Assembly: GCF_029633865.1 (NCBI RefSeq)
Contig: NC_079223.1
Span: 7,904,190 to 7,968,189 of the forward strand
Direction: 5' to 3'
Length of the DNA: 64,000 nucleotides
Source: Lampris incognitus
Lineage: Eukaryota; Chordata; Actinopteri; Lampriformes; Lampridae
Shown: positions 2,318-64,000 of the stretch, piece by piece
Numbering within the stretch: the first letter of the stretch is position 1
Layout of the letters: every line of letters starts with the position of its first letter
The notes under the pieces: model-generated
Told to the model about the DNA's origin: nothing
What the model saw: only the letters and a program-made list of their open reading frames with translations
Database searches by the model: none
Made by a program: the position numbers and the translations under genes

Positions 2318-5250
2318 CATTTCAATTTTATTTGTGTAGCGCAATATCACAAATTACAAGTTTGCCTCAGGGGGCTTTACAGCAACACAACATCCTGTCC
2401 TTAGACCCTCGCGTCGGATAAGGAACAGCTCCCTAAAAAAAAAACTTTAACAGGGAGAAAAAATGGGAAGAAAGCTCAGGGAGAGCAACAGAGGAGGGGT
2501 CTCTCTCCCAAGACGGACAGCGTGCAATGGATGTTGTGTTTACACAATTTACACAATACAACATTGAAAGAGGAGAACAGAATTATCATGGAATTACAAA
2601 ATATATGAAGAATACGATAAAGAAGATGCCAAGCAGTGTCCAGATGCCACCGGAACAACCCAGGACCTGAGCCACGCCACCACCATCACCTGGTAGACAA
2701 AAAAAAACCCCACATTAATCACAAGTCTGGGTGAGGGGAGGATATAACATTGAAACAGGATAAAAAAATTATATGGATTTATCTTCTTCTTCCTTCGGCT
2801 TGTTCCCTGTTTCCCAAGGGTTGCCACGGTAGCACTGAGGGCACAGCACTGATAGCGGTCTTGTCAATCCGCATAACGATTTGGCAAAATTCTACATCGG
2901 ATGCCCTTCCTGACACAACCACTGACCCTATGGACGGGTTATATGGATTTATAAGATATATAAAAAGAAAATGTGGTGAGCGGGATGCCAAGCAGTGTCC
3001 AGGTAGCGACCACCATCACCATGGAGACCTGGGAGGAGGACAGACTGCACGTGCACACAAGGGAGACTCACATCACACCATTCACACACACACAGAAGAG
3101 AAGGAGACATTCAGGGAGAGAGCAAAGACAAGCAAGAGCAGAGAACATTTACCAATAGTCAGTTATCTTATATGCTAAAATGTCATCAGCAGAACAGTGG
3201 TTGGTAAATTCATTGAGACAGAAAGTGACCCGCCATGCAGTACAGGTTGCGAAGCACTCAACTTAAAGGCAGCTAATCGTAGGCTAAGGCAACATATGAG
3301 TTTTAAGTTTGGATTTAAAGCATTCAAGAGACTCTGATTGTCTGATGGCAGCAGGCAGGTTATTCCACAAGAATGAGGTCCGATAGGAAAAGGCCCTGTC
3401 AGCAGCTGACTTCTTTTTAACTTTGGGTACACACAGGAGCCCTGTATTTTGAGAGCAGAGAGCTCAAGTTGGAACGTACAGTTTAAGGAGATCAGACAGG
3501 TAAGATGGGGCAGCAGAAGCACCTTGAAGTTTGAACATGGATAGGAAGCCAATGAAGGTAGGCAAGAATTGGTGTAATATGGTCAACTTTTCTAGTTTTA
3601 GTTAGGATTCTAGCTGCAGCATTCTGACCCATCTGAAGACATTTAGTACTAGCATGTAGCAGACCTGAAAGCAGAACATTATAATAATCAAGTCTGGATG
3701 AAACAAATGCATGTATTAGAGTCTCTGTGTCAGCCATGGACAGGAAAGACTGAATTTTAGCTATGTTATATAAGTGGAAAAAGGCAGTCTTGGTGATTTC
3801 TTTAATGTGCTTATCAAAGGAAAGGCTCGGATCAAACATAACACCGAAATTATTGGCTGCCACACTTTGTGAAACCACAGAGTTGTCAATTGTTATTGTT
3901 ACTTGATCCAATTGTCTGTGTCTAGCAGGCCAATGACCAGCTTCTCAGTTTTATCCGAATTTAAAAGCAGGAAACTTAGTGACATCCGGTTTTTCACAGC
4001 AGTCAAACAGGCCTCTAAATTAGTCATTTGAGTATGATCATCAGCCCTTATAGGCACATACAGCAGAGTATCATCAGCATAGCAATGGAAATGTATTCCA
4101 TAACTGCGTATGATTTGGCCAAGAGGTGAAATATAAAGAGAGAAAAGTAGAAGGCCAAGAACTGAGCCCTGAGGTACATCATATTTAACGTCAAAAATTT
4201 TTGATGTAATATTACTAAAGCAGACACAACACGTTCTTCTAGATAAGTAAGACTTAAGCCAAGAGAGCGCTAGGGCAGAGACACAAAAATTACAATTTAT
4301 TCTGTCTAATAGTATGCAGTGATCAATGGTGTCAAAGGCTGCACTGAGGTCCAGTAGTAGAAGCACAGAAGTGGAATCAGAGTCCATAGCTAGTAGAAGA
4401 TTATTCACCACTCTGGTCAGAGCAGTTTCAGTGGAGTGACAGGCCCTGAAAGCCAATTGAAAAGGCTCATATAGTTAATTTTCATCTATATGGGTCGAAA
4501 GTTGTTGATACACAACTCTCTCTCTAGTACTTTAGAAAAGAATGGACTATTAGAAACTGGTCAATAGTTATTAAAAGATTCTGGATTGAGGTACGGTTTT
4601 TTAAGTAGAGGTTTAACCACAGCTGTCTTAAAACTGCTGGGAACAGTGCCAGTAGTAAGTGATGAATTAACAATGTCTAGCGTTGTAGGTCCCAGGAAAG
4701 GCCAGAGGTTTTTAAACGGTTTTGGTAGTAAAGGGCCAAGTAGGCAAGTAGTTGGTTTAGAAGCTGACAGGATCTTAGTCAAAGTATCAAGAGAGATGGC
4801 TGTAATAACAGGGCCTATCAGTGACTCATTATATAGACATGAATTTGGTAAGACAGGATCTGCATTAGTAGCTGGAGTTGAAGTACTAATTTTGTTTATA
4901 TCTCATCAACCTTATTGCAGAAAAAGTCTAGAAAGTCATGGGCTGTGAATGGTGAGCAGCTAACAGACGGCTGCTTTTTAGTAAGTTTAGATACAGCATC
5001 AAAGAGAAATCTGGGGTTATGTTTATTAATATTGATTTAGCGAGTGAGATATCTGCTTTTGCAGCAGATAAAGCACGCTTGTATTTTAATGAACACTCGT
5101 GCCACGATAGGTGAAAAACTTCCGATTTTGATTTCCGCCATTGACGTTCCAGTCTCCTGCAGGCCTGCTTAAGAGCACGTGTGTCATCATTAAACCAGGC
5201 TGTAGGCCTCTTCAGTCGCCTAGCTCTGGTAGTAAGTGGTGCAACAACAA
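2318..5250 (-). mobile_element. CR1/Rex1-like non-LTR retrotransposon, degenerate, 5'-truncated
   Basis: The minus strand carries the C-terminal half of a LINE ORF2, broken into several frames. Order 5' to 3': an endonuclease-RT linker (about 5240-4930, with PTAWFNDDTRALKQACRR); an RT N-terminal region (4782-4561, with VVKPLLKKPYLNPESFNNY); the catalytic RT core (4456-3900, with HSTETALTRVVNNLL, LLLLDLSAAFDTIDHCILL, VPQGSVLG and the FHCYADDT active-site motif); then thumb and C-terminal region to about 3290 (RLDYYNVLLSG, FLWNNLPAAIRQSES). A long 3'UTR runs to 2318 and ends in an AATAAAATTGA-type tail. Frameshifts and lost starts make it non-functional. The family name is inferred from remembered motifs; Rex1/Babar is the best guess. 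Confidence 0.8.
2769..2952. mobile_element. Short retroposon insertion with 14-bp target-site duplication
   Basis: The direct repeat ttatatggatttat occurs at 2769-2782 and 2939-2952, bracketing about 156 bp that interrupt the LINE 3'UTR. The insert contains the 'cttccttcggcttgttccct ... atgcccttcctgacacaacc' pattern that I recognise from teleost LINE/SINE 3' ends. Long flanking repeats of this size are typical of target-primed insertion. Confidence 0.75.
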
Positions 5251-12290: not shown

Positions 12291-13008
12291 AGGCGGCGAT
12301 TCTCGGAGGTGGGGGGGGGGGGGACAGCGAGCAACTCTAAAATCTCTTGCAGTCCTCCAGAACAATGCAGGATGTGGTCAATCTATAGCTTCCTGCTGCT
12401 TGAAAAACACAGCCGTGTAAGGGCAGAGGAGTTTTGCCTTTGTTTTTTTGGTGCTGGTGTTGCTCGTTGGCAAGATGAGCCACTGACTGACTGGGTGCAC
12501 TTCTTTTAGGTAATCTGGTTCATAGCAGGCGAAGTGGCATGAATGAATGAAGAAACGGAATGAAAAAGAAGGGGGCCGGTGCCAAGCCTTGGCTCCCACA
12601 GCAATACCAACCTCAGCCAAATCCGTGAAGAAATATTGCTTGTTCAGAAGCACCTTTAACAGTTTAATGGAGATCACAAATGCTGAAGAATCGCCTCCCA
12701 GCAGTTAACGGCGTGATTATTGCAGCTGTAACACTGCTGCACGTGTCCTTTGTTGCCGTGTTTGCATCATGTAAGCTGCTCGTGCCGGCTTCTCGGACCG
12801 GCCCGCCCAGCCCAAGCATCTGGGTGCCCGCTTTTATTAAAACAAATCCATTTCACTTGTCATAGACGGGCGAAGTGTAGCCCAGATGAACATAGAGAAA
12901 GCTCACGTCCCACTTGGATCCTAACCACGCCCTGCCTTTCAGACACCAACGGCTTACTATCCCCCCAGCTGTAAATGACCCCCCCCGACATCCCTGCAAA
13001 CAGTGTCA
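12291..13008. other. Intergenic sequence, nothing recognised
   Basis: It contains a G-run at about 12310-12322. No exon or element termini are evident. Confidence 0.4.
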
Positions 13009-14136
<1,128 letters not shown>

Positions 14137-15292
14137 CTTCCGTCACTCGGTGGAGTCTTTTTAATAACTTGCATAGCTCCACTAAGTGTAACTGAACTGT
14201 CCTTTAACACTTAACATGAAACTCAGACTCTGCAGTGGCAAGATCAAACCTTTTTATGGAGAAAAACAGAACAGAAATGGCAAGAGAGCTACAACGGGAT
14301 ATCCTCCGTGGTGTCAAGTGACCCGTTTCCCACTGTGTCGGTAAAAAAACATAAACGAATGGAAGGTAATGGTCCTGAAATTCCAGATCAAGTCGATTTT
14401 AAACTGACACCCGCCTGTGGTGACATTGATCAAAAATAGAAAGAAAGCCAAGGACACACAAGTGTTAGCACATACAGTGTGGACAGTTACAAAACACACA
14501 TGTCATAACACACCATCCTCTCCGCCCCGGCCACGAGCACTGTGGCCGGGTCAATAAACGTTGGTTTCCTGCTTGGGCCACCGGACCAGGTGATTAATCA
14601 AAGCTTTCATAAATAACCCGGCCGCCACAAGTCAGTCGCTGCTTGGTTATCAATCTGGTCCCAGGACCTTGACAATCACATCACTGGGCCACAGATGTCT
14701 TTCAGTGACGCCAAGGTCCCTTAAACTGAAGAGGAGAGGGGTTACTAACAAGGTCGGCACCTTGGGAGGAGGCATCCCAGTCCCTTTGCTTGAGAGGAAA
14801 CGAACATCGCCTGGGCCTGACTCCTAATTGCCCCCTGAGGGACACGGCATCCATTTAGAAAACCCGTTAGGAGATTGAATTCCGGATGGGGGCAATGAAC
14901 GAGTCCGGGCTACAGGGCAGGTTCAAGGTCTGGATTAATTTCTTGGCATCCTCCCAAAGACCATACGACCCCCATTGGTCGTAAGAGCTCATCTGCTGCT
15001 GAGGGCCTTAAAATGAGATTAACCTCTGCCTCTCTGCTCTTGTCTCTCGGCCCTCCACAAAGTGGCAGTGAAACGGCGGCAACCTGTGACGTTTCTCTTC
15101 ATCTGTTGCCTTTACAAGAGAAAGGTGACGCCATTTGCATTGCGAGTACAGAAAACTGGTCGGTGGTCTTTGCAGGGCCCAGTCACCAAGACATCATAGG
15201 GGGGGGAAGAGAAAGTGTGTTCAAAAGGGAGGTAACACTAAAGCCTCTACGAGAAGCCGGTTCGCTCGGACGCCATCTTTGAAACGCTGCAG
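14137..15292. other. Intergenic sequence, nothing recognised
   Basis: No exon or mobile-element ends are seen. A 9-bp perfect hairpin (CCCGGCCAC with a 7-nt loop) lies at 14526-14550. Confidence 0.4.
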
Positions 15293-15667
15293 GGCAGTAA
15301 ATTCCCCCCCCCCTTTTTTTTTCCTGCCCAATCGTATCTGTCCAAATACCCCACTCTTCTGAGCCGGTCGCTGCTCCACCCCCTCTGCCAGTCCGGGGAG
15401 GGCTGCAGACTACCACGTCTCTTCCGACCTGACAGTGAGGAGTTTCACCAGGGGGACGTAGCGCGTGGGAGGATCACGCTATTCCCCCCCCAGTTCCCCC
15501 TCCCCCCCTGAACAGGCACCCTGACCGACCAGAGGAGGCGCTAGTGCAGCGACCAGGACACATACCCACATCCGGCTTCCCACCCGCAGACACGACCAGT
15601 TGTGTCTGTAGGGACGCCCGACCCAGCCGGAGGCAACACGGGGATTCGAACTGGGGCGGTAAATTCC
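15293..15667 (-). mobile_element. tRNA-derived SINE, copy A, head-truncated
   Basis: Matches on the minus strand to the SINE family at 16289, 49425, 62426 and 63928: ttcgaatccccgtgttgcct near the head, tggtcgctgcactagcgcct, and cctcactgtcaggtcggaag. The tRNA-like head is cut off just upstream of the B box. Flanking repeats ggcagtaaattcc (15293-15305) and ggcggtaaattcc (15655-15667) differ at one base and mark the insertion. Confidence 0.8.
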
Positions 15668-16288: not shown

Positions 16289-16672
16289 GGGCGTCCGGGT
16301 AGCGTGGCGCCAGTTCGAATCCCCGTGTTACCTCCGGCTTTGTCGGGCATCCCTGCAGACACAATTGGCCGTGTCTGCTGGTGCGATGTGGGTATGTATC
16401 CTGGTCGCTGCACTAGCGCCTCCTCTGGTTGGTTGGGGGAAGAGCATGACCCCCCCCCCACACGCGCTACATCCCACTGGTGAAACTCCTCACTGTCAGG
16501 TGAAAACAATCGGCTGGCGACTCCACATGTATCGGGGGGGAGACATGCGGTAGTCTGCAGCCCTCCCCGGACCAGCAGAGATCGGGATGGCTCGGAAGAG
16601 TGGAGTAATAGGCCGGATACAAGTGGGGTGACAGGGGGTGGGTGGGGGTGGGGGATCCAAAAAGAAAAATTA
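16289..16672 (+). mobile_element. tRNA-derived SINE, copy B
   Basis: Starts ggggcgtccgggtagcgtgg, then jumps to the B-box region (cagttcgaatccccgtgtta), so about 40 nt of the tRNA-like head are deleted. The body continues through tggtcgctgcactagcgcct and ctcctcactgtcaggtgaaa. The 3' end is G-rich and A-rich near 16650-16672. Confidence 0.8.
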
Positions 16673-17316
16673 GTGTACCTCAGCTGGCAGCTAGACGGTT
16701 GAGCAGTTTTGCGCCAAAACTCAGTTTGAGAAGAACCAGCATGCAAAGGAGTCATGACGCGTGACCTTATTCAGTGAGTCATGATATTCCCTTTTTTTTC
16801 CGGTTCACTAGCCCACAAGGTTGACGCTCTTAGCAGTTCCAGCTGTGCAAGATCAGATCCATCACGCTTGTCACATCGCCATCTTGTCTGCGCGGCGCGG
16901 CGCAGCGTTGGCACCGGGCTATTCGGAGCCTCCGTGTTATCGAACGGCGCTACTTTAACAGCGTCTCAAAATAAACCACGGCGACGGACACGAGGGAGCT
17001 GCTCCTCCTGTCCTGGCCCATCCGCTCAGGCGTATGACTCAGGGTGAGGCAAACTGCCGCGGGGAGAGGGGAGCTCCATCACTCAGCCCGTTAACCACCC
17101 GTCGTTCACATCCACCCCCGTCTCAGGCACCCATTTAGGACAGAGAGCCGTGGGCATTACAGCTCGAGTGGTGGAAATATGGAAATTTGCGGTCTTCGCT
17201 TCGCCGCCCGTGTTTGGCTTGAAAGGCCGACGCACTCGGCTACGGCAGAGGGTGTAGGACGTCTACAGACGTCTCTTGAAACGTCTGCCTGCCACAAAGT
17301 GAACTCTGAGCCAGAG
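16673..17316. other. Intergenic GC-rich sequence, nothing recognised
   Basis: GC-rich with short open frames only. It ends where the partial LTR-like repeat begins abruptly at 17317. Confidence 0.4.
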
Positions 17317-17935
17317 ATGCCTCCTGCGGTGCGGGCGATGCGGGTTCGCGTCCCGGCCGCGGCAGTTCCTGTGGTTGCGTTGTCCCCCCGAATTCGCTAC
17401 ATTGGTGTCAGAAGTGGGATGGAACGACCGTAAGGCCATCGGAAGCGCATGCGCCCTGAGGCGTGAAGGAGCTGATATGCTTAAGCGCGGGGACGCGCTT
17501 CCCGAAGGGGGGGGTAGTGTGACGTGCATGGATAAGAAGGCACGCTGGCCGCTGGCTGACGGGTCTGACCCTTTAGTCGAGCGGTTAGCGATGTCTCCTG
17601 CGGTGCGGGCGATACGGGTTCGCGTCCCGGCCGCGGCAGTTCCTGTGGTTGCGTTGTCCCCCCGAATTCGCTACATTGGTGTCGGAAGTGGGATGGGGCG
17701 ACCGTAAGGCCATCGGAAGCGCATGCGCCCTGAGGCGTGAAGGAGCTGACATGCTTAAGCAGGAGGGGGGGTAGTGTAACGTGCATGGATAAGTAGACAC
17801 GCTGGCCGCCGGCTCGCGGGTCTGACCCTGTAGTCGAGCGGTTAGCGATGTTTCCTGCGGTGCGGGCGATGCGGGTTCGCGTCCCGGCCGCGGCAGTTCC
17901 TGTGGTTGCGTTGCTCCCTTAATTCGCTACAATAC
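17317..17935 (+). mobile_element. TRIM-like mini-retrotransposon, three-LTR tandem form
   Basis: Order: partial LTR 17317-17401, interior 17402-17517, full LTR 17518-17675 (158 bp), interior 17676-17774, full LTR 17775-17931. Full LTRs start TGTRACG and end CGCTACA. Each interior begins with T and then the primer-binding-site match TGGTGTCAGAAGTGGGAT (17403-17420; one mismatch at 17677-17694). Each ends in a purine run (17504-17514; 17761-17771) followed by TAG and the next LTR. No coding sequence fits in about 100-116 bp. Each full LTR contains a tRNA-like segment with A box TAGTCGAGCGG and a B-box-like GGTTCGCGTCC within a perfect T-arm. LTR-INT-LTR-INT-LTR is what unequal recombination between two copies would give. 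The 3' flank is ATAC (17932-17935). Confidence 0.75.
17403..17420 (+). promoter_or_regulatory. Primer-binding-site match to a leucine tRNA
   Basis: The 18 nt TGGTGTCAGAAGTGGGAT lie one base after the LTR end. From memory, their reverse complement equals the last 15 nt plus CCA of vertebrate leucine tRNA of the CAG/CAA type. The same 18 nt recur at 18432-18449. Confidence 0.7.
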
Positions 17936-18269
17936 TGATACCGTTGTCTTGACAACGTCTCCTGTGTGTTTTCGTTAAACTATACCGAAAAGACTGGGAT
18001 TCACAGAGCAAGAGCTCGCAGCTTCATCTTCTTTTTGTCCGATAAACACTGATCTAGCGCTTAATACGACTGGCGGGGCGGGAACCCGCTGCGGAGGATG
18101 CTCTCTGGTGCTTTAAAAGCCAGAGGAGGGAACGGCAATGCTTTGTTTTTGCAACATATGGGGCGTTCTTCATGATAACAGCTGCCTGCTGATTGTCAGA
18201 TTGATGTCAGCTCAGTATGGGGTCCCCCAACACAAACGGCTCATGCTGATGACACACACTGTCGCCACT
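17936..18269. other. Spacer between two TRIM-like elements
   Basis: About 330 bp without any recognised feature, separating the three-LTR array from the complete element downstream. Confidence 0.4.
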
Positions 18270-18685
18270 ATGTTGTAACGTGCGTGGATAAGAAGACACG
18301 CTGGCCGCTGGCTCACGGGTATGTCCCTTTAGTCGAGCGGTTAGCGATGCCTCCTGCGGTGCGGGCGGTGCGGGTTCGCGTCCCGGCCGCGGCAGTTCCT
18401 GTGGTTGCGTTGTTCCCCGAATTCGTTACATTGGTGTCAGAAGTGGGATGGGACGACCGTAAGGCCATCAGAGGCGTGAAGGAGCTGATATGCTTAAGCG
18501 CGGTGACGCGCTTCCCGAAGGAGGAGAGTAGTGTAACGTGCATGGATAAGAAGAAACGCTGGCTCGCGAGTCTGACCCTTTAGTCGAGCGGTTAGCGATT
18601 CCTCCTGCGGTGCGGGCGATGCGGGTTCGCGTCCCGGCCGCGGCACTTCCTGTGGTTGCGTCGTCCCCCGAATTCGCTATAATAT
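18270..18685 (+). mobile_element. TRIM-like mini-retrotransposon, complete two-LTR copy
   Basis: 5' LTR 18274-18430 (157 bp), interior 18431-18531 (101 bp), 3' LTR 18532-18681 (150 bp); 408 bp in all. The PBS match TGGTGTCAGAAGTGGGAT is at 18432-18449. The polypurine tract GAAGGAGGAGAG at 18517-18528 is followed by TAG and the 3' LTR. The interior also has a hairpin around aagcgcggtgacgcgctt. Flanks ATGT (18270-18273) and ATAT (18682-18685) look like a 4-bp target duplication with one change. Both LTRs carry the tRNA-like segment (A box, T-arm). There is no gag or pol, so any movement would need enzymes from another element. Confidence 0.8.
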
Positions 18686-35000: not shown

Positions 35001-38000
35001 TATTGCAAAAACAATGATCCAGTGAGATTAAGGATAATGCCTGCGACACAGTTGGGATACTAGTGGGAGTGTGGTTATGGCAGAAGTTGGTTGGAATAAA
35101 AATGACTCCATCATCCATGACTTGATGCTGAATTTACTTAAGTTGGCCATTTGGCATCAGCGTGTGGCTTTGTGAGCAAACTCTTGTTTTGTCTACAAAC
35201 TAGTTTTGCCTCCATTTGCACGTCCATTTACTTTACTCCATGATTTCATAGCACTCATGAGTAGGGTTTTACATTGAGATTTGGATTGAAACGAACGTAA
35301 ACTCTTCTCTGAGATTGTAATAATAATTATCTAAAATTCAACCTGGGCGAACCATCATCTCCTTTAGTTGCTCTAATTCCATTGGCTTTATAGCAAATCA
35401 AAATCCTTTTTGTTCCTTAATAGCCCCATGCTAAATATTATCATGCATGATGTAACAATGTTCACTCCCAGTAGGCAATGATATGATCCATATTAATAAT
35501 GCTACCAGTAAATAAAAAATTACTAGACAAAATATGTAAAGCATATTTTTGATTTTGAATGCTAGACAAGGTTAAATTCCTACTAAGATAAGCAATTCAA
35601 AGAAATTAATATTTAACTGTCCATGCTTCCATGATGCAAATGTCCTTAAAGTTTATTGTTTGTTTACCTCAGCATAGTTTAGCTTAATAATGTCAATGTT
35701 GCAGAAATCATCTGAGGAGACATTGGCTGATATGGAAAGATGCCACAATGAAGCATTGGCTGCCAAGGAACAGGAACTAGAAGCCAGAATCAGTCAAGCC
35801 GTGGTGGGTTTTAATGTTTGTTGTTTTATTTTAAAACATACCCACATATAAAAAGATGGATAACAGTTATTTTTAATCATTTCTTAATTTGTTATGACGC
35901 ATTGTTGAATTTGGGTTCAGGAGAAATGTAAAGAAGAGTTTCTGCAGGCGGCTAAGGAGCAAGAACAACAAGAAGCTCTGGCTCTGGAGGATGCAGAACT
36001 ACAGAAGACTGCTCTGAAAGCAGAGGCTGAGAACAGGGTCAAAGACATACAGTTAGAGCTAGAAGCTGCAAGAACTGTAAGTTTTTTAATAACTGAATGA
36101 TTTTTTTTTTGTCCTTGGTTAAATATGAATCTTTTTTAAAATCAGTAATCTATTATTGTCTTTATAGCTGCATTGGCATTGTGTAAAACCATTGTACTGT
36201 AAAATTGTGGCAGTCAATGTAAGAACTCAAATGTATCTGGTTGCAGAGAATACTGGAGCTTGAGAGCTCTCTGGAGAAGAGCACCCAAGATGCATCGGTT
36301 CCGTCCCATGACTACTCCAGCCAGTTGGAGGAACTGAAGGCTAAACACAAGGAGCAAATGTCGGCATTACGGGAGGAGCACCGGGAGCAGCTGGAGAGGC
36401 ATAAAGACATCCTTGCCCAGAAGCACACTTCTTTAGAGGAACTCAAGGAAAAACACAGAATGGAGATGGAGACCCTCTTGAAAGATAAAGAGCTCCAGTT
36501 CCAAGCTCACGTTGAAGACATGAACAAGAAAACTTTGGAGAAATTGGATATTAAGCAGACAGAGCTCGAGACGCTTTCTTCTGAACTTTCCATGGTCTTG
36601 AAGAGTAAACAGCTTCTGGAGGAGAAGCTGGCAGCAGCTGGAGATGCTGACAATTTAGGCAGACAGGCATTGGAGCAGAGGCTACAAGAAGAGGTGGAAA
36701 AGCACAATTTGAAAATATTGAACATCAAGCAACAGCACGAACAGTCACTTGGGGGTATAGAGAAAACTCTGAAAGATGAACTGAATGCATTGAGGATTGT
36801 TCTTAAAGAAAAGGAAAGGGAACTTGGAGAACATACCGTAAGAGAAAAAAAACTTGAAGAGGAATCTACAACTCATCTACAGGAGCTAAATATCAAGGTT
36901 AAGGAACTGGAGGAGCTACAGCAGAGTTTTTCACAAGCCCAGTCTGAAAAGGAAAGCTTGGTGGAGTCTAATGCGCAGTTAAATGAGATAACTAAGGATC
37001 TTGCTCAGAGCAAGAAGGACTTTAAAAATTTGGAGCATCAACTGGAACTTAAAGAAACTGATTGTAAAGAGAAAGAGGAGTCACTTCAGCAAAGGTTACT
37101 TGAGCTTCAAGAACTAGAACAGCAGCTACAGCAGACCAAGAGGCAACTTGCTGAGCAAGAGAAATCATATGGGGAAGAACTAAACGTTAAGAAGGAAGAA
37201 GTAGGACACCTGAAGAAATTATTGGATGATGAAAAGGCAGCCCACAAAAAGACTGAAAACACCAAAAAGGAAATGGAAGGGAAACTGAAAGCACTGGAAA
37301 CAAAGATGGGCAAGTTAAAACGGAAAGCCGAGGAAATGCAGGAGAAATTCAAGAAAAAGCTACAGGAAAATGAAGAGTCAATGAAAAAAGAACTTGCGAA
37401 GAAGGAGACAGAACTCCAGCAAAAAGAGCAACAAGTCCAAGAGAAAATTCTAGAGATGGCCCAAAAAAGTTCACAAGGTCTCAGCAGTGCAATGTCAGAA
37501 TTGCAGGTCAACCACAAAGAAGAACTGGAGAAACTGCACAAGACCCATAAGCATGTTCTTGAGGAAATGGAGCATCGTTGGCAGGAGAGGTTGAGACACC
37601 AGGAAGATGATTTAACAGAGAAAAATTCACACGTACTACAAGAGAAGTCCCAAGAAATGGAGGACATTTCTCATCAGCTCAGTAGTAGCAAAGAAGAAAG
37701 TGAGCGAGCACTACATGAGCTAAAGGACTTAAAGGAGGAGCTGGTAATTCGAGAGACCACTGTACAAAAGCTGCAAGCAGAGCTTAAAGAAGCTGCAGTT
37801 AAGCTTGAGAGTTTGTCTCAGGGTGAATTGTTGCTCAAAGAGCAAATGGAGTCAGTTGAAAGAAACCTTAACCAGGCATTGAGTGAGAGAAATTCACTCC
37901 AAGATCAGCTGAGCACATCAGAAGACAGCAGAGTGAAGCTGAAGGCGTTGTCAGAAAAGTTTGAGGAAACCGAGGGGCAGCTTAAAGCCCTCAATGCCTC

Positions 38001-41000
38001 AAAATTGAAGGAAGGTGAAGATTTGCAGAGGAAGCTTGAGGAGAGCGCTTTACAGCTGGAAGCAAAAGAAACAGAATTTCAGAAGCAGCTAATTGTAATT
38101 GGCAACCAGATGGAGCATTACTTTAAGGAGGTTCAGATTAAGTTGGAGTGTGGCGCCAATGAACTCTGTGAAAGAGTTGAATGTAGGGTGAGAGAGCTGA
38201 GTGAAAGACTTTTGTGTAATCAGAAAAGGATAGGACATCTTAAAAATGTTATCCTTAGTAAAGCAGACAGAATTTGCACTTTAGAGGAGCATCTTTTGCA
38301 GCGGCAGGAGGACAATAAGAATCTATGCAGTTCAATAGAGCAGATGACTGCTCAGCTTACAGCTCATATAGAGCATACTGAAGCCTTAACAAATGAAAGG
38401 GACAGTCTTCAAAGAGATACTGACACTAATTCTCAATCCATCTCTGAGAAAGTCCTAAGAATCAAACAGCTTAGTGAAGAAAACAAAACTATCTCAGAAA
38501 GCCTTCAGACGAATATGTTGCATATTAATGACCTGGAAAGCATCATCAATGACTTGAAAACCCAGTTAGCAGGAAAGGTAGAGGAGAAGGAAGAAGCCAT
38601 AACTTTGTTGAACCAGCAGTATAAGGAGGAGAAACAAAATGTTGTTGCTCAAATGGAGAAGACAATTGAGAGACTGGAGCAAGAGAGAAAATCTGCAGTG
38701 GAGCAGGCTGACATACTCAGGAAAAGTCTGTCTGAGTTTGAGAATAAGGCAGAGTCCAAGTTCACTCAGAACCAAAATACTGTCATCTCTCTGCAAACCA
38801 GGCTTGAAGACATGGAGCGAGAAATCTCAGAAAAGAACGAAACTTTGCAGAGGCTTACAGCCAGTATCGACAATCAGTCAATCAGCAAGTCTGAGATGGA
38901 CCAGGCGCTGAGTGAGAAAGAGCAGAAAGTCAGTGCTCTTACCTTAATGCTTGAGAGCTGCAATGATCGACTTGGTGAGCTTCAGGATCGGTTGGCTTTA
39001 AAGACAAAAGAGTGTGAACAACTCACAGCTGACCTAAAACAGCAGCACACCATCAGGGAGAATGAGAAGAGAGAGTTCACTGAGCAGCTGCAGCAAACGC
39101 AGAAGCAGTACACTCAGAATTATAATGTGGTTTGCGAGACCGAGGAAAAACTACACTCCCTGGAGAAAGAAAACCAAACTTGTAAATTAGAGCTTAAAAG
39201 TCAAAAGGAGGAATTTGAAAAGATGAAAAATGAAATTCTAAAGAGCAAGGAGGAGAGTCTGAAGGCAACAGAGGAGAGGCTGTCAACAGAAAGCGCCAGG
39301 AAAGTATCAGAATTTAAAAAGAAAGCAGAGCAGAAACTGGTTCAGATTAAAAAACAGCTTATGTCACAGATTGAGGAGAAAGATCAGATCATCAAAGATC
39401 GTCAGACTAGCTTGGAAGAACTCAAGGATAGCGAAGAATCCAATAAACATCACATGGAAACCCTCGAAGAGAAAGGACGAGCACTTGAGGATGCTGTTGC
39501 TAAACTCAAAGAGGAGCAGGAAAAACATCTCGAACAGATTCAGACCAGTGAGAAGCTTGAGAAAGAAAAGTGTTTGGATGAATTGAAAAACATGTATGAA
39601 GAAAAGCTATCTTCACTTCAGAGAGATATAGGCCAGGTGTCTAAAGCAGATGAAACTCTCGCAACATTAGAGGAAGTTAGAGCAAGGCTAAAAGAAGCAG
39701 AAGAGCAGAATGAAAACCTCTCCACCGAAATTAGTCGTTTGAAAGAACAACTACTTGAGAGGGATGCACAACTTGATCAGCAACAGGGAGTAAGTTCATG
39801 CTTGGAGAAACAGGGCCAGATTCCACTTGAACTGGAGAATGAGGTGAATGTGGGACAGAGCAATGTGGAGAAAACCAAGAGCACATTGGGAACGGAGCAG
39901 GGGAACCATTCTGTTTCTCAGGAAGAAGACGGTGCATCTCCAGAGTTCTTGAGGAAGAAATTGGTAGAGGTCGAGAATGAAAAGCAGAAAATCCAGAAAG
40001 ACTTAACCCGTTTGCAGAAGGACATCAGGTTGTTGAGAAAGGAGCATGAGCAGGACCTAGACTATACAAGGAAAGAGCTGGCAGAGGCAAATGAGTCAAA
40101 GCTCAAGTAAGTTGAAGATTACAAAGGATGAAAATAAACACAACAAACAAATTAAATGGAATACTTCTGATTTCATCAGTTATGGTTCTTTCTAGGTAAT
40201 TTGAGTTAATGCTTTTGTTATATTGATGTATTGTTCACTATCGTTGCCCACAGACTCGAGCTGGAAGATGTAGAAATGAAGCACAAGTCTGAACTGAAGC
40301 AGTTAATGAGGGAGTTCAACACACAAATGGCTTTGAAAGAAAACGAGATTGATACGTCAGTGAAAGAGACCATCGGTGAGGGAGGCAAAACAATTAGTAT
40401 TAAGTATTTACTGAGTCAAACTGAACATCATTATGCAATCCATTACACATAACAATGATCCATAAGATAAATGTTTTCCTTTTGTTGTAATAAAAGGTTA
40501 AAGCTGTGTTATGTGCACTTCACCACACCATTAGCTGGTTTGGAAAACAAAAAACCGGCAAATCATGGTAAATATAATTGACCTCTTATGTAGGGTAGAA
40601 CAAATAGATGGAGACTGAATGAAAGGAAACATGGTTGATATTTTGATCTTTAATAATGGGAGAACAAAGAAACGGGATTACTGAATTAGGAAACGATGCT
40701 GATTGGCCCTTTTTTCTCAGGACCATGTGAACAAGTAGTTTGGAACAGAAATTTGAAGTATCTGCTAATTCTGGCTTCTGTCTATTCCTTTGTCACAGCG
40801 AAGGCCCAGAGCGTGGAAGCGGAGCTCATCAGTGGCCATCGGGAGGAAGTCAGTCAGCTGCAGAAGGTGATTGTCCAGAAAGAGGATGACTTGCATAGAA
40901 CTGTCCAGACGTACGAGCAGGTTTTACAGGTACTGTACAACAAGATGTGGCGTAAATCCAAAAATGTGTAAACATTTTTCCTTTACCGGAACCTGTAATG

Positions 41001-49320: not shown

Positions 49321-49424
49321 GGTTCGATTCATGAATAATACTTACAAGTACGTTTCAACTTTTGGTGAAAAGAAATGTCGAATGTATTTCATTCATAACA
49401 CTGCCCTCTGAAATTCTCTGCTTC

Positions 49425-49803
49425 GGGCGTCCCGGTAGCGTAGCAATCTATTGCGTTGCCTGCCGACACGGGGATCGCCGGTTCGAATCCCCGCGTGACC
49501 TCCGGCTTCTTCGGGCGTCCCAACAGACACGGCCAACTGTGTCTGCGGGTGGGAAGCCGGATGTGGGTATGTGCCCTGGTCGCTGCACTAGCGCCTCCGC
49601 TGGTCGATCGGGGCGCGTGTTCAGGGGGGAGGGGGAATTGGCACGCGCTACACCCCCCCTGGTGAAACTCCTCACTGTCAGGTGAAAAGAAGCGGCTTGC
49701 GACTCCACATGTATGGGAGGAGGCATGCGGTAGTCTGCAGGCCTCCCCGGATCGGCGGAGGGGGCGGAGCAGAGACCGGGACGGCTCGGAAGAGTGGGGT
49801 AAC
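49425..49803 (+). mobile_element. tRNA-derived SINE, copy C, full-length
   Basis: The complete tRNA-like head starts gggcgtcccggtagcgtagc and has the B box GGTTCGAATCC at 49481-49491. The body carries tggtcgctgcactagcgcct and ctcctcactgtcaggtgaaa. The end is at about 49803 (gaagagtggggtaacaactg). Pol III transcription of the family is implied by the head. Confidence 0.85.
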
Positions 49804-49961: not shown

Positions 49962-50104
49962 GTATTGTCACCGGTTATTTTCTTGCCCGGTGCGGGACTC
50001 GATACGGGCTGTACTGCACCACAAGGCGACATCACTAACCGCTCGGCTAAAGGGTCAGGCCCGTTAGCTAGGGGCTAACGTGTCTTATTAGTAGTTTACA
50101 ATAT
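49962..50104 (-). mobile_element. Divergent solo LTR of the TRIM-like family
   Basis: The minus strand, 50100 to 49966, starts TGTAAACTACTAATAAGACA and continues CTGACCCTTTAGCCGAGCGG, collinear with the LTRs at 17.5-18.7 kb, and ends GGTGACA. Flanks on the plus strand are GTAT (49962-49965) and ATAT (50101-50104). No PBS or interior follows. Clearly older than the 17-18 kb copies. Confidence 0.6.
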
Positions 50105-57900: not shown

Positions 57901-60900
57901 TTCTGTGAACAGGGTAAAGTACAGCTTCAGCGTCTAGTCTATTTTCTCTGCGTACATGTATGGCCTTCACAAAAATACACTGGGGAAATGCAGCAAGTGC
58001 ATTTCCCCAATGCATTTTTGTGTGAGCGGTCAAAATGACCACGCGTAACTTGCGTGTCATGGTTCGCGTCATGTCAGTATGACGTATGGCGTGTGTTGTT
58101 CGCGTCATTTCCTTCGCAGTTCCTTTTTTTTTACGTTTCACGTTTTACAGGCCTTGTTATGGTTGTTAGATTAGCAATATGTGTTTTCCGTTTTGTTTTT
58201 CAGGAATTTCCAACATGTCTGGGTACAGCCGCCATTACAGATGCACCATGACTGCCACCAAGGCGTTGCACTATTTACAGGCGTTGGACAGCGGCGATTT
58301 TAAATTGTAAATAGTATTGTAACGATCACGGACTCGCTAGCCCGTTGTCTAATGAGTCAGATCCTGTAGTCAACTGGTTAGCGCAGTTGCCCGTGGTGCG
58401 GGCAACCCGGGTTCGCATCCCGGCTGCGGCGAATTCACAGCAGCCCTCTGAATTCTCTACAGTATTGAAATTGTTAAAATGTTAATTTTGATGTCAGTCG
58501 TTTCTTAACAGACATACTAACATATGCAATGCATTAATATCTCAATCGGGTATTTATCTTGACAGAATATAGAGTTTAAAAACAGGCAGTCATTTTGACC
58601 GCCCATGGTCGTTTTAGGTTGGAGTGAAATTTCGGGCATTCTAGTGTTAATAACACACGATCTCGCGAAACAGGGAGCGTTTCGAACCATGAGGACCGTA
58701 TCGAACAATTTGGAATTCCATCCAGTATCGTCCCACCCCTAATAAGTATGTGTGCGTCATATCTTAGACCCATATAGACCCATACTGTTCCATCTAGCCA
58801 TCTATACTTGTGTCTTCTTGTGGCTATTGTCTGCATATTACCTTTATAATCATCAATGTAAAATTTAGTTAACACCAAAATGAGAATAAATGTCCGATGT
58901 CCTAAAAAGCATCACTTTCTCAAATGAAAAATTTTTTTTTCCACCAAATTGTCTAAATGAAATTAGATGTTTAGTCATTCGAGGTCATTACACAGAGAGA
59001 CCCAGATGCGCCGCATCTGGTATGAACAACAAGCTTCTCCGTTCCCCACATAAAATCCGTCCTGCGGCTGTTATACATGCTGTGTAAATCCGGCCTAAGA
59101 GCGCTTGTTGATCCAAGCCCTGTACCTCCCATCTGCAGCTAGGGTGTGGATTGAATTTGTCATGGCACATGATCTCTGCCATCTTACCATAAGTTATGGA
59201 GCTCTTCCCCTACTCCTGGCACTCTGGCATCAAAGACAAGTAGCAGGAGAGCATTGAAGTGTGTTCTCGTCCTCGCTTTCAAACATACACAAGTACCTTG
59301 GCAAGATCGAGCTGCTGGGAATTTGAAGGACACCCAGTTCGTTTCGCTGAGGATTAAGTATCCAACACGTTGTGGCATTCGCCAACTGGGAGAGAGAGCT
59401 TGTATTCCCTCTTCACCTCCTTGAAGAGAAAAACATTTACATCATCAGCGTATAATTGTGATGAAGGCTTAGGTGAAGACATGGGCTTTGTTTTTCATCA
59501 AAGGTAGGAGAAACTGCTGAATTTACTGCTATCATAAACCACCAAATTTCAAACATGAAGTCCATTTAGTTTATTTTGGTGAGCTTACAAGTTCCCTGTA
59601 GCTGCCGTGGCCAACTTCATCCCTGTACAGCAGTAAAAATCCAATTTTATCAACAAAAATATAAAAGAATATGTAGAATACTTAGCTGAATAATGCAGGT
59701 ATGTTCTTCTTGTTATGTATGTATTGATTTGTGAATTTATATTGTTTTTGAGAGTTTTGTCAGCCATTTTTTTCCCTGCTGGTGCTGCCAGGTCAGAACT
59801 TCACTTCCTTCCGTTCCTCGGTTTACCTGCAGTGTTTGGAGGAGCCAGGCTTGCCTTGCATGGGGCCGTGTGTACAGTGCATTTTAAACGGTTCCAAACT
59901 CAATATTTTTGGTAACATGAGCGCAGTGTGTGTCCCCCCCCCCCCTGAAAGAATGAGTTTTTGTTGAATGCGGCATTGCGACCCTTTTCTTAAAAGTCTG
60001 TTTCTGCCCCCAGAATCCTCTTGGATGGAGCCGTTACTTTGACTAGCTCCATATGGAATGCAGGAAGAACTCCAGTATACGCTGGCTCAGGCACACAGTG
60101 AAATAATTTGTGGTTTGTTTTTTCTTACAGACCATAAGCAGAAGTATGGGGAAGAGCACGGCTCATGCCAAGCGGGGATAGCGGGCGTTTTTACGGAGGT
60201 CAGTAGCAGTGCATGTACGTCTTATAAATCTATGCGATAACCCCCGTTTCTGTCTGTGCGGCGATACCGTTGGTCGCCCGCTGTTTTTGCAGAGTCTGTT
60301 TTGTTTTCTGGCTGCTATCAGAGCCCCTCGACATTAGCTTCAGCCAGGGATCAGCCGGTCCGCTGTTTGCCAAACCTAGCAGTTAAATCACTCCTTTAAA
60401 TACTTCGCTAACAGCTGATGGCTTGCTCTCAAAAAATCAAACTAACAGACAATGGCTTTGATGAGGGATTTTGCTATGATTTGCTCATTTACTCGGTTTA
60501 CAGATGGATTAGAAGAAACAGCCCAACCTCTCTTGAGTCCACAAGCACATTTTCCATCCTTTTTATTATGTTGGAGTATCACCATTTTGAGAAAATGTTT
60601 ACCTCTGATGAGACATGAGAGTTTAAGGGATTATGCGAACTTTTTATTTCACCTTTTAATATGTGAAACATCGCCCGACTTTTAAAGATGTTAGAAGTTC
60701 TGCGGGGTCAGAATCTAGGGCATGCATAGGGGTATTTATCAAAGCGTCAGTGATTCAGTTTTTCCACAGATGAATAGGAAGGGCTGCGGTTATCTAACGT
60801 GACCTCTCTGGACTGGTTCCACCAGAGATGTTAAAGGAAGTCTAAATTTCCTTCCCTCTATAGATATCAAGCACAAATCTGTCGTCTCGGATCAACACAG

Positions 60901-63863
60901 TACCTTTCTTTGCCCCTCGCACTTAGATATTGACCTACAAGTCAAAATGTTATTTTATTTAAATAACATTTAAATAGAATTATATATTTCTGTGCATCAC
61001 AATGAAGTATGGACTACCCACACCCATAACTGTATAAAGAGGTTCTAGTCAGAACGTCAGATTGACTGACATTTTTATATACCTGAGTGAAAGATGACAC
61101 GAAAAATGAACACGAGGAAACTGTTTGAAAAAAGTGTCCTTGACAGGTCTCGGGCATTTTGTTTTCTGAATAGCAGTCACACACTGTTATGTTGTGTAGT
61201 AAGGGGACCAGTTATGTGTAAAGTGGGACTGAAATTGCAACACAAGTATTTTGTGACACCGTGTATTACTTTAATTGTTATGCATTTTGTACCGCCTTTC
61301 TACTGAAGAAAAAAATACGAGCATACTAGGCAGAATTTAGTTTTTACTTTTTTTCTGTTTTTAAAAGAGCTCCCCCTAGTTCATTTTCTTTCAGCCGATA
61401 TTGTATCATTTTTTATTCTGATACTCATGATGTCATCAGACACACTCATTTACATACAGCCAATCAGATCAAATCATCAAACTATGAAACTCCACCCACC
61501 TTTACCCTCAACCCTTGCTTGTACTTGTCACTCAAAGGTCTGCTCATGAATATTAATGAGCAGTAGACCACTCACGGTTATTAAGACAACTGAGAAGCTA
61601 TGGATACAGGATTAGGAAAGACATACTATCATTTATGAATAAAAAGGTCTTGCTAAGTGTTTCATTATGCCGTTATTAAAGTTAAATCTGCTGAGTTGAT
61701 TTCAGTCCAACATTAAATAAGGAAATATGCTGTGATGAGGCAGCGCTGGAACTTTATCCTACCTTTCAGTAGAACCAGTGAGGATGGAGAGGTCCTCACA
61801 TTGCCATGCTTTCTCTCTGCCCTCGCAGACCTCTAAACGTAACGTCATCAGAAGGTTTCTTCCAGGACAGGCCTGAGGTGAAATATTTGTCACTAGAGAT
61901 ACACACAACACTCTGATTACATTAGCCGCACATGACTAAGCAGACCCACTAACACACTCAAATATAAGCAATACACATAGACAAAAGAGCAATGCCAGCG
62001 GAGGAGGTTTTTTTTCCCCCAGACAATTAGATCCTTAAATGTAGCCAGGTCACATGATCCACATCCAAATCAGGTTTTCTGACGTGTTCGAGGACAGTGT
62101 CAGCGAGCATTTTTGAAGGTTTTGCCTTGGGGTTATGTGAATGCTTAACGTAGCCTGCAGGCTTTGGGCAGTGTTTGGACTGAGGATTTGAACTGAACAC
62201 CTGATAACACTGCAGTGGTAGTATTCTCCATGTTATACGGTTATCTGTCTCTGCAGAGTATCCGCACTTGCACTAACAGCGGAAATAGATCACACATCCT
62301 GTTAGAATGGTTCGAGTTCAGCACATGAAAAAAGAAGATAAAAGAAAATCCCAGAGAACGGTTTGCAGGTGAGGTCAGAAGATCTATGGGATATGTGAGA
62401 GGGCATTTAAAGTAATGTGAAATGGGGCGTCCGGGTGGTGTAGTGGTCTATTCCATTGCCTACGAGCACGGGGATCGCCGGTTTGAATCCCCGTGTTACC
62501 TCCGGCTTGGTCGGGTGTCCCTGCAGACACAATTAGCCATGTCTGTGGGTGAGAAGCCGGATGTGGGTATGTGTCCTGGTCGCTGCACTAGCGTCAGTCG
62601 GGGCGCCTGTTCAGGGGGGAGGGGGAACTGGGGGGGAATAGCGTGATCCTCCCATGTGCTACGTCCCCCTGCCGAAACTCCTCACTGTCAAGTGAAAAGA
62701 AGCGGCTGGCAACTCCACATGTATCGGAGGAGATGTGGTAGTCTGCAGCCCTCCCCGGATCAGCAGAGGGGGTGGAACAGGAGAGTGGGGTAATTGGCCA
62801 AGTACAATTGGGGAGAACAAGAGGGGGGGGGGGGGCCAAAAAAAAGGAATATGAAATGGTCAACCCCCATGTCAGTAGTCATTGATAGTCACTGTTATGA
62901 AGAAGGCTTTTTTTGCTTGTTGAAGAAATGGGCTTTGGTTTGACTGAACACTACGTCCGGCCAGCTGGATTCCGAAACAACCCCAAAACCGATGAGAAAA
63001 GCCTCAGTGCATCTTCTCCTCACAAATTCTCTTAAGAGAAAGTAAGGCTTTCAAAAGGAAGCGGCCAAGAGATGGGAACATTGTTAAACCCGGTCCCAGT
63101 GTGAGGTGCTGTTAATGAGCCCGGTGCTTTGCAGATGTGTGTCCCACAACAGAGGGCCGCTCAGGAAGCCCCGCGTGGTCTTGCTGAGTTGGCTTGTTTG
63201 CTTCAAGGATGCTCAGAGAACACCCAGCAGTCAGTTACTGGGATAACGAGATTAACTGCACAGTACGGCCCATCATCTCCGCTGATTAAACTGGTTGTCG
63301 TATGTGATGGCTGTGATGAAAAGTGATAATACAGATTCGAGGATTTTTTTTTTTAATGTATAGTTGATCCGACACTTAATATGAAGCAGTCTGTAGTCTG
63401 CTTTTCCAGTTCCCTAGATATCATACGATGGACTTCCATGCGCTCCCAACAAAGAAGCTGTGAACAAAACAATTTACAGCCATGACTGTCGTTAGGTTTT
63501 CAAGTTCCCCCGAACATCAGAGGAGGCGTCTACATCTGGCATCTAGTCTGGTACTGTGGTTAAGGGCTGATAGCACATCGCAGTCTGCGGCCATTGGTTA
63601 ACCAGAACTTCACCCAGTTTCTTTTTTTCTTTCTCCTCTCTCCTCCTCCTCCTCCTCCTCAACAGGCTTCTGGGGGTGCAGAAAAATTTGCAAATCTGAA
63701 CGAAGGGTTCTTTTTTTTTTCTTTTTTTTTTAGGAGCTGGTGGTGATGGGAGCTCCAGGGTCATACTACTGGACGGGGACTATCAAAGTGTACAACCTGA
63801 CCTCCACGTCCTTCTACAGCCCAAACAAAGAGGAGGTAGACTCCCACAGATACAGCTACATTG
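51773..63863 (+). CDS. ITGA9: Integrin alpha-9, N-terminal exons (partial, continues beyond window)
   Basis: Alpha subunit of the alpha9-beta1 adhesion receptor, which binds tenascin-C, VCAM-1, osteopontin and others at the cell surface. Exons: 51773-51963, 52561-52688, 54668-54774, 57611-57734, 60131-60198, 63734-63863; all phases join, giving the first 249 residues of about 1,030. A signal peptide ends near AYS|YNVDLEQ. Then the beta-propeller: FRGPDSSFFGYSVLEHYHDN, ILVGAPRA, CRVHSNPERRCTEMDLGRG, SCGKTCQGDRNDEWMGVSLA, YGEEHGSCQAGIAGVFTE and ELVVMGAPGSYYWTGTIKVY, all close to human ITGA9. The second in-frame ATG (51785) has the stronger Kozak context, so the start may be four codons later. 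The remaining exons lie to the right. Confidence 0.95.
51964..52560 (+). other. ITGA9 intron 1, with repeated block
   Basis: The intron carries two direct copies of 'ggtggcagctgccacctctg ... cttgccacccctgttgccac' (52137 and 52346); the second is part of a palindromic element listed separately. Confidence 0.6.
52315..52423. mobile_element. Small palindromic MITE-like element
   Basis: Starts CAGGCGCGGATCTGC and ends GATCCACCACTG. Interior inverted repeats of 21 bp around GGGGTGGCAACAGGGGTGGC are perfect. No clear target duplication is seen, so the ends are approximate. Confidence 0.5.
52561..52688 (+). CDS. ITGA9: ITGA9 exon 2
   Basis: ILVGAPRANSTYSSSAHSPG then ALFKCRVHSNPERRCTEMDL and GRG across the splice. 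Acceptor TCTGCAG, donor CGAG|GTCAGC. Confidence 0.95.
53907..54150. repeat. Common teleost interspersed repeat fragment
   Basis: The phrases 'acattacagtcatttagccg' and 'aagcgacttacaataagtgc' are typical of a very abundant fish repeat. The class is not resolved here, and no ends or target duplications are visible. Confidence 0.55.
54148..54212. other. Near-perfect 65-nt hairpin
   Basis: GGCAATCTCACCCC at 54154-54167 pairs with GGGGTGAGATTGCC at 54187-54200. The stem continues inward with one mismatch to a 5-nt loop, and outward, after a bulge, through AGAGGT/GCCTCT. It could be a decayed MITE or a small-RNA precursor; no evidence of transcription. Confidence 0.6.
54668..54774 (+). CDS. ITGA9: ITGA9 exon 3
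   Basis: NKPRESCGKTCQGDRNDEWM then GVSLARQDKANGKIL. Acceptor CTCACAG, donor TTG|GTGGGT, phase 0. Confidence 0.95.
54775..57610 (+). other. ITGA9 intron 3
   Basis: 2.8 kb. An L2/RTE-like tail lies at 57070-57318. An open frame at 56001-56513 has no similarity I recognise. The rest is blank. Confidence 0.55.
57070..57318 (+). mobile_element. L2/RTE-type LINE tail fragment
   Basis: Shares 'gacacggggagaacatgcga', 'tttgaacccaggaccttctt' and the terminal 'ctgggccaccatgccgccc' with the copy at 7508-7945. Non-coding, 5'-truncated. Confidence 0.7.
57611..57734 (+). CDS. ITGA9: ITGA9 exon 4
   Basis: ACAHRWKNVYYDSEHILPHG then YCSIIPATLQGRTRPLIPCY and E. Acceptor CCTGCAG, donor GAAG|GTATAG, phase 1. 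Nearly collinear with the human segment. Confidence 0.95.
58019..58650 (+). mobile_element. piggyBac-like non-autonomous element, copy 3
   Basis: The right end is followed by TTAA (58647-58650). Blocks shared with copy 2 include 'cgcgtcatttccttcgcag' and 'gaatatagagtttaaaaaca'. Its transposase-like start reads MSGYSRHYRCTMTATKALHY then LQALDSGDFKL and a stop, preceded by a TTTTTCAG acceptor-like site. It is interrupted at 58319 by a solo LTR. The left end is not well defined. Confidence 0.65.
58315..58465 (+). mobile_element. Solo LTR of the TRIM-like family, intact tRNA-like arm
   Basis: 143 bp from TGTAACGATC (58319) to TCTCTACA (58461), flanked by exact GTAT repeats (58315-58318, 58462-58465). 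The interior includes CTGTAGTCAACTGGTTAGCG (D-arm/A-box region), a possible anticodon arm TTGCCC-GTGGTGC-GGGCAA with a 7-nt loop, and a perfect T-arm CCGGGTTCGCATCCCGG. No PBS follows, so it is a solo LTR or a SINE-like unit. Confidence 0.75.
60131..60198 (+). CDS. ITGA9: ITGA9 exon 5
   Basis: DHKQKYGEEHGSCQAGIAGV then FTE. Acceptor CTTACAG, donor GAG|GTCAGT. KYGEEHGSCQAGIAG is identical to human. Confidence 0.95.
60199..63733 (+). other. ITGA9 intron 5
   Basis: 3.5 kb. A SINE lies at 62426-62847 and a short palindrome at 61537-61569. A pyrimidine-rich (CTC)n tract at about 63627-63660 precedes the exon 6 acceptor. Nothing else is recognised. Confidence 0.55.
62414..62859 (+). mobile_element. 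tRNA-derived SINE, copy D, with target duplication
   Basis: Body 62426-62847, head ggcgtccgggtggtgtagtg with B box GGTTTGAATCC, and a tail of G and A runs. Flanks aatgtgaaatgg (62414-62425) and aatatgaaatgg (62848-62859) differ at one base. Confidence 0.88.
63734..63863 (+). CDS. ITGA9: ITGA9 exon 6
   Basis: ELVVMGAPGSYYWTGTIKVY then NLTSTSFYSPNKEEVDSHRY and SYI. It carries a GAP motif of the next propeller blade and a potential N-glycosylation site (NLT). Acceptor TTTTTTTAG, donor ATTG|GTAAGA, phase 1. Confidence 0.95.
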
Positions 63864-63927
63864 GTAAGAACCACTGGTCAACAGCGACTGCATTAGTGCT
63901 GCTTTTTGCTCAAATAAGAATGAATAA

Positions 63928-64000
63928 GGTGTCCGGGTGGCGTAGCAGTTTATTCCGTTGCCTACCAGCACGGGGATCGCCGGTTCGAATCCCCCCTGTT
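63928..64000 (+). mobile_element. tRNA-derived SINE, copy E, cut by window end
   Basis: The head ggtgtccgggtggcgtagca through B box GGTTCGAATCC is visible. The body lies beyond the window. It sits in ITGA9 intron 6. Confidence 0.8.

Follow-up and report, generated by a model that had tools for sequence, protein, structure and literature searches.

Helenus-type TRIMs with a tRNA-like LTR segment in the Lampris incognitus genome, and a candidate Ty3/gypsy helper

TRIMs are tiny non-coding LTR elements, and Helenus is the group of TRIMs whose LTRs contain tRNA-derived sequence. In the portions of Kojima 2024 (PMC10886601) drawn on here, these elements are also labelled TRIMp3, their transcription by pol III is expected, and the fish families are related to zebrafish LTR-11_DR, which forms tandem arrays. 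The same portions give 4-bp duplications for animal Helenus and tRNA-His, tRNA-Leu or tRNA-Lys as the vertebrate primers. Gypsy helpers for animal Helenus were inferred there from PBS similarity, with examples in bivalves and insects, and a long LTR stretch common to TRIM and helper was considered unlikely; the main results, discussion and tables of that paper contain neither a fish helper nor TRIM–helper hybrids. Ajax, as described in those portions, is likewise a TRIM with a small-RNA promoter in its LTR and a tRNA-Leu PBS, but its promoter is 5S-derived and its hosts are nemerteans.

Cassandra, a TRIM of plants, likewise has a pol III promoter in its LTR, but there it is a 5S rRNA promoter. 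The elements analysed here lie in a window of 64,000 nucleotides from Lampris incognitus, and Rfam scans of the window elements returned no 5S rRNA match, the feature that marks Cassandra and Ajax. Their likeness to Helenus, as its features are given in the portions of PMC10886601 cited above, extends to a TRIM length below 1000 bp, A and B boxes in the LTR, a PBS, a PPT, 4-bp duplications, a tRNA-Leu primer, tandem arrays, solo LTRs and several families per genome; the comparison with the LTR-11_DR group is by these described features, not by sequence identity. The initial annotation knew of no described fish family of this kind; since Helenus, fish families included, has been in print since 2024, this main surprise is not new. 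A literature search found no publication on Helenus after Kojima 2024 and no match to the PBS string, and exact-pattern matches in viral contigs numbered 0. What is new here is genomic evidence, from four shared signals and hybrid copies, for a candidate helper of a Helenus family. We consider it probable that the window elements are Helenus-type TRIMs copied by a Ty3/gypsy helper, with the pol III cycle proposed below.

The window elements, termed family A, occupy two places on the plus strand. The first, 17313–17931, is an array of the form LTR–interior–LTR–interior–LTR that has lost its left end: by LTR comparison, a 5′-truncated LTR (17313–17401; LTR positions 70–158) is followed by interior 1 of 116 bp (17402–17517; PBS 17403–17420, PPT about 17504–17517), a 158-bp LTR (17518–17675; A box 17574–17584, B-box-like sequence 17617–17627), interior 2 of 99 bp (17676–17774; PBS 17677–17694, PPT about 17761–17774) and the 157-bp LTR at the right end (17775–17931; A box 17831–17841, B-box-like sequence 17874–17884). 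The second, 18274–18681, is a complete LTR–interior–LTR element of 408 bp, composed of a 157-bp 5′ LTR (18274–18430; A box 18330–18340, B-box-like sequence 18373–18383), interior 3 of 101 bp (18431–18531; PBS 18432–18449, PPT about 18517–18531) and a 150-bp 3′ LTR (18532–18681; A box 18581–18591, B-box-like sequence 18624–18634). Full LTRs measure 150–158 bp and interiors 99–116 bp. The LTR termini read TGTRACG...CTACA, with the last two LTRs finishing in TTACA and CTATA; an 18-base PBS begins 1 base past the LTR, and each downstream LTR is preceded by a purine tract. The PBS of interior 1 matches tRNA-Leu-CAG at 18/18 bases and that of interior 2 differs by one base, where the assignment uses human tRNA sequences. 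The window's open reading frame list holds no frame of at least 120 aa overlapping 17313–18681. Family A is therefore, in size and in being non-coding, an LTR element of the Helenus kind (below 1000 bp), and the tiny non-coding LTR elements that the initial annotation saw at these two places are borne out in their LTRs, interiors, PBS and PPT. Its short flanking repeats fare less uniformly, because clean 4-bp duplications occur in other copies, whereas the complete window element is flanked by ATGT on the left and ATAT on the right (3/4 bases alike) and the array has no left end.

Elsewhere in the window, another repeat family with a tRNA-like head (GGTTCGAATCC), by eye probably a SINE, lies at 16308–16580, 49421–49760, 62421–62780 and 63923–63994, and inverted at 15371–15657. 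An open frame of 1289 aa at 36241–40110 (plus strand) has a coiled-coil, golgin-like look by eye, another of 185 aa at 3899–4456 (minus strand) resembles by eye part of a LINE-type reverse transcriptase, and a short-period tandem array at 12890–14214 is open in several frames.

Across the genome (1.48 Gb, 537 contigs), family A recurs as solo LTRs, LTR–interior–LTR elements and arrays. The LTR A search gave 43 scored matches, from the best 40 of 1517 first-look candidates, and the interior A search 41 matches, from the best 40 of 1393; these candidate numbers, like the 648 for LTR B, of which the best 40 were also scored, are not copy counts, and the sampled copies represent the top scores and not a random draw from the genome. 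Counted copies are chains with both LTR ends within 2–3 bases of the query ends; duplication and target counts additionally required the best piece to be at least 84% identical and cover loci L001–L071 (38 family A copies), while the TTTT and flank-G counts cover L001–L041 (37 copies). The exact tRNA-Leu-CAG 18-mer is present in 12/16 junction sets and a version one base off in the other 4/16, and a purine-rich tract stands ahead of the 3′ LTR in 16/16. Exact 4-bp target duplications flank 17/38 copies, whereas 5000 flank shuffles averaged 5.8 such copies and never exceeded 14; in the 21/38 copies with unequal flanks, mismatches number 10, 0, 5 and 11 at positions 1–4, and are mostly outer. 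The 5′ and 3′ LTRs of 12 elements are 90–97% identical. The genome search proposed in the initial annotation thus recovers copies with PBS, PPT, LTR ends and 4-bp duplications, and the loss of PBS and PPT conservation, which it had named as evidence against its reading, is not seen in any of the 16 junction sets.

Retained PPT bases were considered as the origin of the unequal flanks and rejected, since on inspection by eye the flanks did not match a shifted duplication. A G adjoins the LTR in 11/37 left and 4/37 right flanks (L001–L041).

The Helenus-type TRIMs described here are non-coding elements of about 410–440 bp, and their LTR contains a degenerate, putative promoter of tRNA origin. 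The A box, TAGTCGAGCGG, fits TRGYNNARNGG and begins at LTR position 57, or at 50 in the last LTR, which is shorter; GGTTCG is located 43 bp past it in 4/4 full window LTRs. An A box with GGTTCG 25–50 nt further on occurs on the plus strand of the window at exactly these 4 LTR places and on the minus strand once (7933), while 30 dinucleotide-shuffled windows (plus strand) contain 1 match in total. In this sense tRNA-derived sequence with A and B boxes is found in all four full LTRs; the family A sequence GGTTCGCGTCC, however, departs from the strict B box consensus GWTCRANNC, and what had been called a perfect T-arm is a 4-bp stem, judged by eye. The fold check suggested in the initial annotation went against a tRNA structure: minimum-energy folds of six tRNA-like segments contain no cloverleaf (z-scores −1.06 to 1.07, no better than shuffles), and neither ARAGORN nor Rfam calls a tRNA in the window and the fetched loci, one scan having covered 49/97 loci. 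Against 16 tRNAs, the family A LTR reaches a best score of 39 (shuffle 95% point 31, maximum 41) and the family C LTR 34 (95% point 30, maximum 36), whereas the family B LTR scores 47, closest to tRNA-His, and is the only one above every shuffle (maximum 31). Families A and B, described below, resemble each other (82–85% over 67–75 bp) in the A-box block and the roughly 40 bp that precede it, and in little else of the LTR.

Signals of other kinds were compared as well. TTTT is absent from 36/37 family A copies (L001–L041); because it is also missing from 44% of shuffled versions of the complete window element and the copies are related, this is a weak fit to pol III. None of TATA[AT]A, AATAAA and TTTT was found in the tested LTRs of families A, B and C. 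By contrast, the gypsy LTR of L062, introduced below, has AATAAA, and two gypsy LTRs hold 5 and 3 TTTT. Two gypsy LTRs also have an A-box-like match at position 3, so the A-box motif alone means little. Judged from sequence, pol III transcription from the Helenus LTR is putative but plausible.

Two related families are present in the window as solo LTRs, that of family B at 49966–50100 on the minus strand (135 bp; flanks ATAT/ATAC) and that of family C at 58318–58461 on the plus strand (144 bp; GTAT on both sides). For family C, two other copies of the host repeat (at about 41.5 kb and, inverted, at 6.7 kb) are without the LTR and represent empty sites. The reading of the 50-kb match as a 212-bp LTR with TATA and AATAAA was dropped, as complete family B elements, which are about 360 bp long and lie elsewhere in the genome, put the LTR end at 49966. 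The family B PBS matches tRNA-Leu-AAG at 17/18 bases in the copy tested; across 17 junction sets it reads TGGTGGCAGCGGTGGGAT in 8, is one base off in 4, and in 5 the full PBS is missing. Exact 4-bp duplications flank 18/27 family B copies (mean 1.65 and maximum 7 in 5000 flank shuffles), and the preferred target is CTA (10/27 copies), most often CTAG. This second leucine-type PBS and the CTA/CTAG preference point to a second helper.

The families also form mosaics, at 4 places among 71 loci. In L068/L069 (one place) an array joins LTR A to interior B and LTR B to interior A, the LTRs being full-length wherever the family changes; L062 has the order LTR B, interior A, LTR A; in L067 the front of the 3′ LTR is of family B and its back of family A, with the switch inside the shared block; and in L022/L023 (one place) family C-like LTRs flank a short interior A piece at 76–81% identity. 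Joins that lie at the PBS or within the LTR would correspond to sites of strand transfer in reverse transcription. In family B copies L061, L067 and L070 the same bases are missing from the stretch that separates the LTR end from the PBS (AACCGGTGGCAGCGG), which looks like a join between two GGT repeats. Interiors A and B, otherwise unlike, have in common a GC-rich hairpin-like GCGCG-NNNN-CGCGCTTCC just ahead of the PPT (window 17486–17503; L014), which could be a packaging signal.

The autonomous Ty3/gypsy element with the same PBS and LTR ends that the initial annotation had proposed to look for is represented by a candidate family, known here from pieces. Upstream of LTR B, locus L062 carries a Ty3/gypsy-type 5′ LTR, the PBS TGGTGTCGGAAGTGGGAT and a broken gag, and the search with this gypsy piece gave 68 matches, the best 40 of 256 candidates having been scored. 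On pieces of L075, a degraded copy, RVT_1, RT_RNaseH, Integrase_H2C2 and the zinc knuckle zf-CCHC are above the Pfam cut-off, and Ty3_capsid (E 0.097), RVP (E 0.013) and rve (24.6 bits; cut-off 32.6) are below it; in the PDB, the RT piece matches 4ol8 best (7.7e-72) and then Ty3 Gag-Pol 7q5b. The candidate thus has Ty3-type RT, RNase H and integrase matches, with rve, protease and capsid below cut-off. Among 24 gypsy 5′ sides (L062/L072, L073, L074, L075 and L076–L095, out of 40 scored), 14 have the gypsy LTR start, 1 (L082) has a 28-bp piece of it and 3 have family A LTR sequence; the remaining 6 show no LTR within the 451 bases fetched.

The Ty3/gypsy family differs from family A in coding for gag and pol and in its longer LTR, which is without the tRNA-like segment except in hybrids; in L062 it is 327 bp, reads TGTAGCGAA...TTCGCCACA and differs from the family A LTR. 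Yet PBS, PPT, TG...CA ends and short fixed duplications are features of Ty3/gypsy elements in general, and this family shares these with family A. Specifically, both have the tRNA-Leu PBS with a 1-nt spacer. The PPT GGAGGGGGTAA|TGTA is found in gypsy L075, the one copy from which the gypsy PPT is taken, and in the family A copy of L062, other family A copies having mostly ...GGTAG|TGTA. The 3′ termini of the LTRs, TTCGCCACA in gypsy and TTCGCTACA in family A, have TTCGCYACA as common end. Lastly, the left flank, the only side available for gypsy, starts with RTA in 13/14 gypsy and 28/38 family A copies, compared with 4/27 in family B and a background of 2.5% (Fisher tests: A vs B 3e-6, gypsy vs B 2e-6, gypsy vs A 0.25). 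Because family B prefers CTA in the same genome, target preference follows the element, not the genome. On these sequence signals, family A is likely to have as its helper the Ty3/gypsy family to which L062, L073 and L075 belong, or one closely related to it.

Four loci (L062, L074, L096 and L097) join Helenus LTR sequence to the gypsy gag region, and in two the junction coincides exactly with the PBS. In L062, gypsy LTR and gag are followed by LTR B, interior A and LTR A, and the join falls within 14 bases, GAGAGGGTGACGAC, that gag and the family B PPT have in common. L096 (with L087) has an LTR A piece, interior A and a full LTR A, then gypsy from the PBS onward. In L074, family A LTR sequence leads at the PBS into gag and the interior downstream of it, with another family A LTR behind; the hybrid is flanked by ATAT on both sides, which is weak evidence because ATAT is common. 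L097 (with L081) has a hybrid LTR, the tRNA-like front of LTR A and the back of the gypsy LTR, ahead of gag. Joins at the PBS are expected if both RNAs are co-packaged and recombine in reverse transcription, and strand transfer may have caused the hybrids. Foldback family A LTRs, with an inverted U5 part and then a direct one, were observed at L074:1284–1459, L081:353–442, L087:269–380 and L097:2462–2589; their left end, TGTAGCGAA, is complementary to the right end and is preceded by ATAT in L074, L081 and L087.

Several other readings of these data have to be weighed. tRNA-type SINEs also have pol III boxes of tRNA origin; they are without LTR, PBS and PPT and integrate in the LINE manner. 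The tRNA-like A and B boxes would fit ordinary tRNA-type SINE dimers, but LTR ends, PBS, PPT, 4-bp duplications, solo LTRs and empty sites make such an identity extremely improbable. A reading that deserves more weight, though we hold it doubtful, is that the tRNA-like segment is a fossil of a captured SINE or tRNA piece with no promoter role, transcription now coming from pol II or host promoters. The degenerate family A B box fits such a fossil, as do the missing cloverleaf and the silence of ARAGORN and Rfam; on the other hand, the A-box block with its upstream 40 bp or so is the part common to families A and B, whose LTRs are otherwise different, and the tested family A, B and C LTRs are free of TATA[AT]A, AATAAA and TTTT, while the gypsy LTR of L062 has AATAAA and the two gypsy LTRs contain TTTT.

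The link to the helper could also have another origin, with hybrids and shared ends arising by DNA recombination or adjacent insertion in place of co-packaging, and with another tRNA-Leu-PBS element as the real helper. The arrays, the solo LTRs and the unequal flanks all hint at frequent recombination in DNA, the L062 join lies within the 14-base identity, and L074, L081/L097 and L087 carry inverted family A LTR pieces and therefore have a complex history; moreover, the helper comparison covered one gypsy family with a tRNA-Leu PBS. Nevertheless, the L074 and L096 joins are at the LTR/PBS boundary, the site of plus-strand transfer, the agreement in PBS, PPT, LTR end and target preference is independent of the hybrids, and family B in the same genome has a different PBS and target preference, so that we regard this explanation as unlikely. 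A more far-reaching extension is that a coding Ty3/gypsy element picked up a pol III-type LTR which now drives it, or once did, and that this coding element spreads as a separate lineage, with TRIM–helper traffic going both ways. Its basis is the family A LTR on both sides of the gag-pro-like stretch of L074 and the hybrid LTR before gag in L097, and we offer it as a speculation that is quite unlikely to be correct.

For the preferred reading, that of Helenus-type TRIMs copied by a Ty3/gypsy helper, we propose the following cycle. Transcription by pol III would begin in the 5′ LTR, at a point ahead of the A box, and continue through the interior and 3′ LTR to give a short RNA with a repeated R region, which the Gag of the Ty3/gypsy element may package. 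In line with the sequence signals, tRNA-Leu would then prime at the PBS, the PPT would prime the second strand, and an integrase would join the LTR ends to RTA-type sites, duplicating 4 bp of target. Recombination between LTRs could finally leave solo LTRs and tandem arrays such as that at 17313–17931. The fish TRIM with a tRNA-type promoter and gypsy-derived copying envisaged in the initial annotation agrees with the PBS, PPT, LTR ends, duplications in other copies, empty sites of a sister family and candidate helper, and its promoter part is tempered by the degenerate B box.

With a concrete helper candidate, the dependence of a TRIM on an autonomous element becomes a testable question. The comparison of family A with this Ty3/gypsy family suggests that PBS, PPT and integrase-recognized ends may suffice for use of a helper without a shared LTR.
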